Shown here: positions 13,849-27,716 of the stretch, piece by piece
Numbering within the stretch: position 1 is the first letter of the stretch
Layout of the letters: each line of letters begins with the position of its first letter
Translations under genes and position numbers: made by a program
Assembly: GCA_008973525.1 (NCBI GenBank)
Contig: WACJ01000404.1
Location: 1,612,001-1,676,000 of the forward strand
From: Stenopsyche tienmushanensis
Lineage: Eukaryota > Arthropoda > Insecta > Trichoptera > Stenopsychidae
Length of the DNA stretch: 64,000 nt
Direction of reading: 5' to 3'
Notes under the pieces: generated by a model
What the model saw: the letters and a program-made list of their open reading frames with translations, nothing else
Told to the model about the DNA's origin: nothing
The model's database searches: none

Positions 13849-16800
13849 TCAAAGTGCCCAAACTTTTACGGTATCTACGAGCAATGCTGATTTTTCGCCC
13901 CAAGTATGATACCAGGTATCCTTCTTTTGCCAAAAATTTAATATGGCTTTAATAGCTTTATTTTTCCATGGTTTGTTACCTATGTTATTTGGAAAGTTGG
14001 ACACACCTCCAACTCCCACCCCTACGGAGACGTAAAACTGAAAAGATGTATATTATTTACCCTTTACTCTCTGTACAAACTCTGTAAAAATATCGTTCAT
14101 ATTTTAAGTTTTTTTTTTTTAATTAAAGAATATTCATTCCAAAATGATTTGATTGGTTTAAAAACAGGGCTCTCCATAAATATAGCAATTTGTATTGCAC
14201 ATCGGAGCCAAGTCAAAATGATAATTCTCTACTATTCTATCTAAGTTATTCCGGTATTAATATGAATTGTACTATAAAATATCACGGAGAATGATCAATC
14301 TTGTTAATTACCTCTTTGTCGAACGGAGCAAGTGGAGAACCTTCTGCGAGTCTTCGGTTCATTCCATTACAGTTAAATTCTTTAAATCCGGTCAACGGAG
14401 GATTAATACTTCCATATGGTTTTCCGTCAACTTCCAAGGATATTGAACCTTTAAAATGAATCTTCCAAATAAATCATGTCCAATGGAAAATTATTTTCAA
14501 TCGATTTAAATTAATAAAAATATTAACTCACTAGGTGACCAAATGAGTCCATAAGTGTGGAAAGAGTCTCCCCAATTTTTGGTATAATCACTGTTTTCCT
14601 GTATTCCTTTAATACGGCAACTCTCTTCATGACCAAGAATAACTCCTCCTGACAAGGCTTTATTGCTAATATCCTTGTTACCGTATTGCAATACCGAATT
14701 GCCTCTTGCGAATGCGATTCTCATAATACCAGATTCAAATCCAACCAGTCCGTACTCGCTATTAGCTGGCTCTAAATACAGCACTGAAATAATTTAAAAA
14801 AAAATCACAAGCACAATTCAAAGCAAACATATAATATTGCTTCGTTGTATACTTTTTATAATGCATGTTGATTTTCTACATAAATATAAATCATTTGGAG
14901 ACATATATTCTAAGAAATGAAGCAATCAAAAGTTGCTCAGAGCTTTTAAGATCAAAAAGAAAAATAATCAATTATATCATGCCAATTTTAAAGCTTTTGT
15001 ACGGTTTTCTTTTTCGAGGGTTTCAGCAAAATATGCTCTATTAATATATAATTTATTAAATGTATAGTACCTGGATAAATCCAATCGCCTTGGGGTAATT
15101 TAGCCTTGATTTCAATTTTCCCATATTTAAAACTGAACTGAGATCTAATTTTTCCGGATACAATCGGTGGCAATATGTAAGCACCTTCAGCCGTTCTATT
15201 ACATAGGCTTGGTTGGAATGCAGTACATCTAAAAATATATTTTTTACAAAAATACTATTATGAAACAAACTTAAGCATTATCATTCCTTGTTTGCTTTAT
15301 TCGTTTTTTCTAAGAATTATTACACATAGTGTATTTGTTTTTCATTAATAAAAATGTAATTATATTCTACTAATTGAAATATTTAAAAAATTGTCAATAT
15401 AAAACCGTTATTTTGTCGGGACCGGAACTGAACTGTTCAGTACGCGCTTTACGCGAAAGAGAGCTTGGTTGATTTTGTGTTGATATGATGTGTAACTTTC
15501 ATCATTATTTTGCACCATTTGTGTGATCGTATTCATATAATAAAACTGTATTTTTAACTATTTGTCCATCCTGCAATTTTCCTATAAAATCAATACTACA
15601 GACACTATTTTTTATCAACCCAAAGTCATTATTATGCATTTTGTTCATTGATTTTTGATTGTATACATTATATTCGATTTCTTGATTATATACGTGATAA
15701 ATGATTTTTTTTATTTTTTTCGTCTCCTACATCTAAAATTCCAGATATTTTCTAGAAAGATAGATACACTACAAACGATTCTCTTTCTTTTTTTAACAAC
15801 TGTTCCTCGGAGCTTCCCTTTTCGTGACGTTTAAGCCAAATTATCATGTACAAGTTTCGCTTCAAAAATAAACATATATTATTGGGGTTAAACCACTTGT
15901 CCGCTGATATTACGCTTTGAAATTCATATTCGAATACAGTTCTGGGATTGTCCACCAATTTCTAATTAATTGAATGAGCATCAATAATTAAAGAGAGTAA
16001 ATCCGATCATATTATGCGTGTAGAATGTTAATTATTAAATAAGGACTAAAATGTTAAAAAGTAAGATTTTAATAGTAATACTACAAAAATTTGAAGCTTT
16101 TTTATACAATCTCTTTGTTTCGAAATACAGTTGCAGAAAGAGTAATTGATTCTGTTGCCAATTTATGTGATCTGAAATGTGTGTTTTCATTAAAGAGCAA
16201 ATAAAAAATAAAGTTTAGATGAAAATGCATCGTATTAGAAGAGCACGGAAATAATTTTAAATCTTAGAACTGAATTTGAAACAAGATTCGCAGATTTTTA
16301 TTCTTTGGAAGACAATTGTTTTTATTCATATGTGCACATAAAGATGATTGAAATTGAGGGAGAATTCTCCCATGAGTCCCACAGGAGACTCGAATCTTCG
16401 GAAATATTGAATTCTTAATATACTTCTCAAGTAATTACTAAACGCGATCGTATACCCGTTTTTTAACGTAATTAAAAATATATAAAAGCATTTCAATAAA
16501 CAAAATTAAACCGCAAAAACTTTATTCGTGCGGCATGCATTGCAACTCATGCCGGATATTTGCTAGTTCAATATAAAATTCATTCTTGGTTTACAAGAAC
16601 CTCAGGTTCAAATTAATATGTGTTTGACTTACGGTTGGATATCTAGAGTATCATCAAAAATAGATTCTTCAGTAAAACCAGGGCGATTGGAGAGCAAAGT
16701 GGGTTGTATTTGTAAATTATTGTCTTTCAAGCTGACTGCCGATGGTAGAAACGTCACAAATTCATCCTCCTAAAATTTAAAATACAATAAAAAATGTCGG

Positions 16801-17041
16801 CAAATTCAGTCGCTTCAAGAAAATGTTGCTTTATATAAAATCATCAATAGCTAATTTCTTCTTGGGCATACCTGCTCATCATTTGGAAATCTAGATTCAA
16901 TTACCCATTTGCTTTTGTCAAGATTGCTACCTGTGAAATTGTCTTCGAATAAAAGTCTACCCTTGCATTGCTTAATGTCTCTTACTTGAGTTTCCGAAAA
17001 ATCTTCACAATTGTCCTTTGAGTCGCTATCTATTGGTAGTC
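13849..17041 (-). CDS. betaGRP gene A, exons 3-8 (GH16-like part; CBM39 exon missing)
   Basis: Exons read leftward: 17041-16872, 16769-16633, 15228-15071, 14783-14532, 14448-14312, 14037-13849. Phases and lengths match genes C and D exon for exon, and the frame is open to the TGA. The product covers the linker and the whole GH16-like domain ([15 protein letters not shown]..., [44 protein letters not shown], ending VDTVKVWAL). The catalytic stretch reads VLYLEP, without the GH16 nucleophile motif. Exon 3 is 36 nt shorter than in C and D. No CBM39 exon is found upstream: just past 17110 the sequence stops matching C and D and becomes unrelated DNA, then the modSP-like gene begins. A matching exon 1 sits at 27590-27716. 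If joined to it directly, the reading frame holds and gives 389 residues. Confidence 0.85.
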
Positions 17042-17115
17042 CTAAAAATCAGACATGATATATTAATTCAATCACACATGGTATATTCTATTTCTGAAAA
17101 ATGTGTCAAATGTAT

Positions 17116-17751
17116 TAATTGACTAGCTGGTACCCGACGCGTTGTTGCCACAGAAGAAATAGTTCTAAAAATATTATTTGAAATTTGAAAGAGCTATCTT
17201 GTTTAATTAGCAATGATATAAATAATGACATTTATGAATGATATATAAAGGAAAAATATAAATTATTAAAAGTATAAATTTTGTTTACTAAATTATTCTG
17301 CTAAGTGCTTTAGGGTAGACAATAGTTTTGGTTTTTCCGTCTTTAGCAAATACAAATATTCATTTTGAAACGAGATTTAAAATTGTTTTATTTGACCTTG
17401 ATTAAAATCTCAGAGACAGTCGAAATCCTATAATGGTTACAAATTATGATGCATTTAAGTTTCTGGTAGCTTATTTTGTTCTTCTAATAATTGAATTAAA
17501 GAAAATGCATGATGCAATAACGATGTGAAAAGCATTAAAGGCTGTTTATGCGGTATAACGTTTAGTGTAAGATTAAGGATCATATGCTAAAAACAACGAG
17601 CATTACTTCGAAAATCATTTTGAAATGATAGTCAAGAAACCCAAAATAGTAAAAAATAAAGACATCACATATATTTAATACATTACACTAAAATATCAAT
17701 TCATTTATATTGATTGTGCAAAGGTCATAATTGACACGATGTGATTATGAT
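17116..17751. other. Rearrangement junction replacing the CBM39 exon of gene A
   Basis: Up to 'gaaaaatgtgtcaaatg' the sequence matches the intron between exons 2 and 3 of genes C and D. It then switches to 'gactagctggtacccgacgc', a motif I associate with repeat borders in Lepidoptera, and on to AT-rich DNA without exons, up to the modSP-like stop codon. The CBM39 exon that sits about 100-180 nt further on in C and D is absent. Confidence 0.6.
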
Positions 17752-26840: not shown

Positions 26841-27273
26841 AGGCCCTTTCTTGCAACCGGTATCAATTAGTGGGCTCGCACCCTTTATTTTGAGGCCGCA
26901 AGTGAGACTCAAAACTCTTCCCTATCCTATACAACATATATTTATGTAATTATTTTCTTATATTTAATTTTTAAACATTTTTATCTATATATTTATTCTA
27001 GCCTAGAATTTCAATTTTTTTAGAATCTTTAGCTAGCTCCCTCCCGCGCTCAGAGCGCAAGTGGCCGCAAGTAGTGGAGAAGGAGCGTGTCCTTGCAGAC
27101 ATGGAATTTTAATTCGACGGTTTTGCACCATACTGTGTACTTTGCGAACGGGCTGGCATGCTCCCGAATAGGGGGATCAATCACACAGCTCGGGTCAGAG
27201 GAGGCTCCCCATGATGTTGTTATATTCGTCCCAAATATTATGTTTATGTCATGCTAATGAAGTACTTTTAGAT

Positions 27274-27489
27274 TTAAAATATTTTTTCGGATGGTGTGCA
27301 CCATCTGGTAATAAATGATTTGGGCGTGAGCAGCCCACATACAGCTGTCCATGTGGGAAGCATGCACGCATACCCTGTGTGTTTCTGTTCTTTATTGATG
27401 CTCACACCGGAAACTGCACACGTTTCTATTCGAATAGCATACCAGTTGAAATTATTAGGACACAACATCGTGCTCTTGAACATTTTCAA
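27274..27489 (-). pseudogene. Helitron PIF1-helicase C-terminal fragment (copy 1)
   Basis: On the minus strand one frame reads SINKEQKHTG and the next reads ACFPHGQLYVGCSR followed by LLPDGAHHPKKY. These match the end of Helitron PIF1-like helicases (INKAQGQT; CFSHGQLYVACSRV), with a frameshift between them. Similar scraps lie at 37975-38145 and 40935-41160, so the same 3' piece was spread several times. Confidence 0.6.
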
Positions 27490-27589
27490 TTCAAACTGTA
27501 GCTCAGATGATATTATTCATTAATTAATAGATGATCATATCAGTTATTATTCGACCTTGAATGGTTCTGAATAATGAAAACTTCAATAC

Positions 27590-27716
27590 CTGGTACGGCC
27601 ACTCTCAGCCCTGTGACCAGTCCTTGCACCTCCACGGCGGGTACCCATAATTGGCCATTGGTCACAACGAAGAACGTTAAAATTGGAAATAACACAAGGA
27701 ATTTGCGTTGAAGCAT
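27590..27716 (-). CDS. betaGRP exon 1, probable first exon of gene A
   Basis: The ATG at 27714-27716 opens [20 protein letters not shown], a clear signal peptide, followed by the first CBM39 strand ([19 protein letters not shown]) and a GT donor in phase 1. It is nearly identical to exon 1 of genes C (49465-49591) and D (56211-56337), including flanking DNA. On this strand the next exons downstream are those of the modSP-like gene, and then exons 3-8 of gene A, 10.5 kb away. Both targets accept phase 1. I assign it to gene A by homology; it may be an orphan, or serve the protease instead. Confidence 0.65.

Follow-up and report, generated by a model that had tools for sequence, protein, structure and literature searches.

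A ModSP-type initiator protease gene in place of the CBM39 exon of an immune sensor copy in the caddisfly Stenopsyche tienmushanensis

The DNA described here, hereafter the window, is a stretch of 64,000 nucleotides from the caddisfly Stenopsyche tienmushanensis (bases 1612001-1676000 of the 2.02-Mb contig WACJ01000404.1, C404, in a genome assembly of 451 Mb and 549 contigs). It contains six genes of the GNBP/betaGRP type, one of them (P) read from the plus strand and five (A, E, B, C and D) from the minus strand, and, on the same strand as copy A and flanked by its exon 1 on one side and its exons 3-8 on the other, the complete gene of a modular serine protease, modSP. ModSP/HP14 is the common trigger of the insect Toll and melanization cascades, with GNBP-type sensors acting immediately upstream. 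An earlier note on this DNA had described an array of six betaGRP genes holding a protease gene on the same strand between the first exon and exons 3-8 of one copy; this order is seen in our exon models, six such genes were found within the window, and the coordinates proposed for exon 1, exons 3-8 and modSP proved correct almost to the base. All junctions in the copy A and modSP gene models are GT/AG and phase-consistent, and all their exons lie on the minus strand.

Beyond the signal exon, modSP comprises 13 coding exons running from 24379 to a stop codon at 17752. The order of its domains (four LDLa, two sushi and an S1 trypsin domain) is that of the insect ModSP, HP14 and MSP initiator proteases, with the cysteines and the catalytic triad conserved; indeed, H436, D499 and S601 (numbering of a 660-aa model) do not vary among the 10 aligned sequences, and identity to the nine aligned relatives is 35-38%. 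In a search of about 5.8 billion proteins, a 579-aa model yielded 109 relatives at E<=0.001 (best 2.3e-115), the top one being a 'modular serine protease-like' protein of Arctopsyche grandis (38% identity over 96% of the query). The 579-aa model lacked the first exon, LDLa1 and exon 23868-23785, and the 660-aa model used for the alignment included LDLa1 and left out exon 23868-23785, while the Pfam scan, the search of the flanking 10 kb, the modSP tree and the approximately unbiased (AU) test were run with the corrected model. Judged by architecture and relatives, the protease is thus of the ModSP/HP14 type, as had been proposed. Two of its donors, at 23785 (GAT/GTTTGA) and 23586 (GGA/GTTAAA), are weak in sequence and are required by the conserved domains.

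Regarding the host, copy A shares 83-93% DNA identity with copies B and C across the main blocks. This homology ends at 17113, in intron 2, and restarts patchily from 25694, which corresponds to position 48922 in intron 1 of B, so that about 471 bp of the ancestral copy A have been swapped for about 8.58 kb carrying modSP. On the far side of this block, the patch 25694-25742 aligns to B 48922-48976 at 80%, identity between 25996-26140 and C 55983-56127 reaches 94.5%, and the exon 1 region is 87-88% identical in DNA to B and C, the similarity reaching upstream of the ATG in C. What the block replaced includes the site of exon 2, which in B and C is 225 nt long, has phase 1 at both ends and encodes the core of CBM39. 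When four exon-2 proteins were searched against the window with tblastn, the matches listed comprised exons of P, E, B, C and D and none for A. Similarly, a genome-wide CBM39 search (451 Mb; 10 candidates scored, 10 matches) gave none assignable to copy A: it returned exon 2 of P, D, C, B and E (the last scoring under the curated cut-off), three matches on contig C124, a weak one on C276 and a weak one at exon 1 of P. The 389-aa product of A exon 1 and exons 3-8 matches GH16 in Pfam (PF00722, E=4.6e-8), CBM39 being absent. Because the other five genes carry exon 2, its loss from A would by parsimony be the derived state. The loss of exon 2 from copy A is new relative to the earlier note, which had placed modSP within a betaGRP gene: by position the protease, whose first exon is less certain, does sit within one host intron, and copy A, having no exon 2, is therefore not an intact sensor surrounding a nested gene. 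For these gene identities as read from sequence, chance resemblance is not an issue in view of the identity of A to B and C, the relatives of modSP and the Pfam domains.

Repeats are found in and around the replacement block. Upstream of modSP, 25130-25416 is a high-copy repeat of roughly 285 bp, SINE-like in size, with 39 further copies at 86-89% identity among the matches listed (40 of 3660 candidates scored). Copies of a repeat also lie at 27249-27434, 40936-41104 and 37997-38128, one of them in intron 1 of A between the conserved patch and exon 1. In addition, a dispersed repeat pair, 10118-10673 and 28632-29128 (81% identity over 556 columns), flanks copy A and modSP.

Phase 1 is shared by the end of A exon 1, the start of A exon 3 and the start of the modSP exon 24379-24313. 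A exon 1 can hence be joined in frame to either of two downstream parts, giving a stop-free open reading frame (ORF) of 389 aa with exons 3-8 and a single stop-free ORF of 688 aa with the 13 modSP exons. Splice sites were scored with simple weight matrices built on 30 donors and 30 acceptors fixed by homology, a training set to which exon 24379-24313 did not belong; this exon has an acceptor of 13.0, equal to the best of the 30 confirmed ones, and a donor of 9.6. A scan for open exons at the 10/8 setting gave no exon pair on the plus strand and 12 on the minus strand, of which 10 begin at known exons; both at 12/9 and at 10/8 the exon 24379-24313 was the sole unexplained open phase 1-to-2 exon of the window. 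These thresholds were picked once the exon was known, and its uniqueness depends on the stricter settings.

Because exon 24379-24313 holds no ATG, translation must begin in an exon upstream of it that ends in phase 1, and for modSP a convincing signal exon of its own was not recognised. For the interval 24384-31500, we listed those start exons whose donor is in phase 1 and whose mean hydropathy is >=1.5 over ten residues. Among these, A exon 1 has the best donor (7.4, the 30 confirmed donors spanning -2.8 to 10.2), followed by 27875-27836 (2.2) and 30714 or 30702-30627 (2.0); the candidates within the block are 24622-24580 (1.0; 14 residues and a 200-nt intron) and 24512 or 24494-24422 (0.8). 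The A exon 1 donor itself is one of 5 out of 171 GT sites in 24384-28000 scoring at least as high. Taken together, the splice and signal-exon data favour, as far as such predictions go, a capture of exon 1 by modSP.

The explanation that we prefer, and that we hold to be about evenly poised between right and wrong, is that modSP captured the first exon of copy A and that the arrangement is derived. A complete modSP gene, introns included, would have come into copy A of a tandem array of MBP-type GNBP genes, and comparison with B and C shows that about 470 bp with exon 2, and thus the glucan-binding CBM39 core, were replaced. Exon 1 of A, together with the upstream region, 5' leader and signal peptide of the sensor, now stands upstream of modSP on the same strand with a matching phase-1 donor. 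Given this position and phase, and the lack of a convincing signal exon in modSP itself, the first exon of the sensor is most likely spliced onto modSP, and the initiator protease would be expressed and secreted under the control region of the sensor. On a structure, splice phases and an exon 2 loss that we regard as established, we infer that the protease is probably transcribed from the sensor promoter. Exons 3-8 could, more speculatively, yield a second secreted product lacking CBM39 when modSP is skipped. The fuller proposal, that a single sensor promoter and signal exon feed two alternative 3' parts, the initiator protease and a CBM39-less sensor, seems to us unlikely. The stretch separating the modSP stop from exon 3 contains polyadenylation-like signals (17679, 17392 and 17207), which make read-through into exons 3-8 less likely.

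Table 1. Features of the window and their coordinates
Feature	Position	Strand	Remarks
Copy A exon 1	27590..27716	minus	start codon, signal peptide, 22 residues; phase-1 donor CAG/GTATTG
Copy A, remnant of ancestral intron 1	25694..26140	minus	patches homologous to B and C
Replacement block with modSP	17114..25693	minus	in place of B 48451-48921, exon 2 site
modSP first recognised exon	24313..24379	minus	phase 1 in, phase 2 out
modSP exon before LDLa1, conserved stretch ending KRQ...C	23785..23868	minus	by eye against aligned relatives; in frame
modSP LDLa 1-4 exons	23702-23586, 23506-23366, 23084-22901, 22460-22345	minus	Pfam PF00057, 4 stretches; splice phases
modSP sushi/CCP exons, two	22224-22037, 21923-21726	minus	Pfam PF00084, 2 stretches
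modSP S1 protease exons	21020-20859, 20080-19944, 19484-19308, 18609-18450, 17960-17752 (stop)	minus	PF00089 E=4.4e-36
Copy A exons 3-8, GH16-like part	17041-16872, 16769-16633, 15228-15071, 14783-14532, 14448-14312, 14037-13849	minus	
GNBP gene P	about 4.1-12.8 kb	plus	
GNBP gene E	44.8-38.5 kb	minus	
GNBP copy B, intact sister	45845..49591	minus	476-aa ORF, eight exons, CBM39 and GH16 by Pfam
Copy B exon 2	48749-48525	minus	
GNBP copy C, intact sister	50156..56337	minus	476-aa ORF, eight exons; CBM39 match
Copy C exon 2	53937-53713	minus	
GNBP gene D	past right window edge	minus	

Several observations weigh against a capture of exon 1, and some of them are equally the arguments for its main competitor, in which modSP and copy A are two separate genes: modSP, with its own promoter and signal exon, would lie within a large intron of a CBM39-less A that is still transcribed. 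The order of the exons on one strand would fit this, as would the fact that copy A is still open and in phase, and phase agreement such as that of exon 1 arises by chance in one case out of three. The signal exon of a separate modSP could be 24494-24422, 24622-24580, 23997-23927, 24547-24504 or one that went unrecognised. By eye, 24494-24422 has a plausible signal-peptide cleavage site, while 23997-23927 (donor 6.9) and 24547-24504 (donor 6.7, 635-nt intron, 14 residues) could join exon 23868 in phase 2; two further candidates for that junction have negative donors. Moreover, some genuine modSP donors are weak, so that weak alternative start exons cannot be dismissed, and at the 9/7 setting exon 24379-24313 becomes one of five unexplained phase 1-to-2 exons, three of them minus-strand and two plus-strand. 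Against separate genes, it must be said that 0.8 and 1.0 are the only donor scores reached by phase-1 candidates within the block, that two of the four options require introns of 42 nt (24494-24422) or 58 nt (23997-23927), shorter than all 30 confirmed introns (79-2273 nt), and that the phase-2 options bypass the strong exon 24379-24313 and are weakly hydrophobic (1.0-1.7, compared with 2.66 for A exon 1). Splicing of exon 1 to exons 3-8 would furthermore have to skip the polyadenylation-like signals that follow modSP. We consider two separate genes, in effect the nesting of the earlier note with a damaged host, somewhat unlikely; as A exon 1 is the best signal exon available to modSP, modSP as an independent nested gene is unproven.

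Whether copy A still has a function bears on a further possibility, namely that the modSP block split copy A, which is now decaying into a pseudogene, with exon 1 an orphan and only modSP, from a start of its own, active. The loss of the CBM39 exon speaks for it, as do the deletion of 12 residues from A and its replacement of E by V at the conserved exon 5/6 junction, compared with no coding indel between B and C (0 per 1079 coding bp, 30 per 1491 noncoding bp); the deletion and the replacement also count against our preferred explanation. Exons 3-8 of A are, on the other hand, free of frameshifts and stops: in 1043 coding bp, A differs from B by 2 frame-preserving indels (of 3 and 33 nt) as against 26 in 1509 noncoding bp, and from C by 2 indels as against 38 in 1972 noncoding bp, the noncoding figures taking in poorly alignable stretches. 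The ratio dN/dS is 0.45 for A-B (bootstrap 0.28-0.72) and 0.39 for A-C (0.25-0.63), near the 0.39 (0.22-0.73) between the intact copies B and C. Unique synonymous and non-synonymous changes amount to 19/32 in A, 9/15 in B and 8/11 in C, the figures for A also counting changes on the stem shared by B and C. Exon 1 and the region upstream of it are conserved as well. Much of the history of copy A thus appears to have passed under constraint, which may reflect the time before the undated replacement. A pseudogene is in our view quite unlikely. That a piece of modSP was misassembled into a sensor copy is highly improbable: tandem repeats at 83-93% identity are difficult to assemble, but the window lies deep within its 2.02-Mb contig, a misjoin should leave a stray exon 2 and the genome search for CBM39 gave none to spare. 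Moreover, the block flank 24384-25693 matches only itself at length, the 41 matches listed (40 of 3660 candidates scored) being itself, 39 copies of the high-copy repeat and one short internal match, with no second long match among them.

The phylogeny of the protease also counts against our preferred explanation. In a tree of 26 sequences, the window protein stands on a long branch next to fly sequences (88/91), not caddisfly ones, and apart from the Arctopsyche pair; a joint clade of the window modSP and Arctopsyche, with a p-AU of 0.074, is neither shown nor rejected. In this position it differs from the known ModSP, HP14 and MSP proteases, as it does in a first exon apparently derived from a GNBP gene and in its place within a sensor array.

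Regarding the sensors, the closest relative of copy B is a protein of Arctopsyche grandis (Trichoptera; 45% identity), and in a GNBP tree of 24 sequences, in which A and B were the window copies placed, both group with Arctopsyche grandis (97/95). This group adjoins a clade of seven lepidopteran proteins including the Manduca microbe-binding protein (MBP), and Manduca betaGRP2 is found elsewhere in the tree. Copies A and B are therefore best regarded as putative sensors of the microbe-binding-protein (GNBP1-like) type: the name betaGRP used in the earlier note holds for the GNBP/betaGRP family, not for a kinship with Manduca betaGRP2. Like the known sensors of this type, copy B has both a CBM39 and a GH16-like domain, whereas copy A keeps exon 1 and the GH16-like part and has lost the exon of the CBM39 core. 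The GH16 domain of copy C was assigned from the close resemblance of its ORF to that of B, the copy covered by the Pfam GH16 scan. In the 10 kb on each side of the window, no more matches to seven GNBP exon queries or to modSP were found at E<=0.01.

To place the arrangement among other insects, the two lists of relatives were paired by eye, giving 17 species in common, 16 of them with contig data for both proteins (Spodoptera littoralis, whose GNBP has no contig, was left out of the count). These were Arctopsyche grandis, Chilo suppressalis, Battus philenor, Melitaea cinxia, Bicyclus anynana, Pectinophora gossypiella, Maniola jurtina, Anticarsia gemmatalis, Helicoverpa zea, Loxostege sticticalis, Arctia plantaginis, Chrysodeixis includens, Hermetia illucens, Leptosia nina, Popillia japonica and Mythimna loreyi. 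In 16 of 16 species the contig of the listed modSP-like protein differs in length from that of the listed GNBP-like protein; a few short contigs are among them, and the list may miss additional GNBP copies of these species. That close linkage of modSP and GNBP is not general is the limit of what this survey shows, and the position of modSP within a sensor gene looks derived. In searches of an open-access library, judged by the titles listed, no published modSP-GNBP locus was found.

According to two published accounts, betaGRPs bound to glucan, or peptidoglycan together with PGRP1 and MBP, prompt the self-activation of proHP14, and this sets off the Toll and prophenoloxidase cascades (PMC11818254, PMC10732536). 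These pathways agree with the view in the earlier note that betaGRP and HP14/ModSP act directly after each other in immunity. As in other same-strand nested genes, a whole gene lies here between two exons of another; the locus differs from them in the loss of a host exon at the insertion point and in the phase match between the first host exon and the inner gene. A gene family of Schistosoma japonicum with a shared promoter and signal start offers the same joining of a ready control region and signal to a new coding part (PMC3434034), while in the present case donor and recipient are consecutive steps of one immune pathway. If the protease truly uses the promoter and signal exon of the sensor, two consecutive immune steps would be bound by gene structure; this would be a clear example of one pathway member capturing the promoter of its neighbour, and a natural experiment on how a sensor behaves without its CBM39 domain. 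Should the two-product proposal hold, the induction, secretion and dosage of the trigger and of a modified sensor would be coupled at one locus.

Elsewhere in the window, two plus-strand frames, 26553-26840 and 35721-35843, resemble, by eye and from their motifs, pieces of non-LTR (long terminal repeat) retrotransposons; the latter falls within a GC-rich patch, 32001-36000, of 47.8% compared with 28-36% elsewhere. In the rest of the genome, trypsin-domain matches form big clusters on contigs C150 and C21, many of those on C150 covering the whole domain in a single open frame. Finally, the three CBM39 matches on contig C124 (1882437-1888544) lie outside the array in open frames of 134-154 aa and possibly represent another GNBP-like family.

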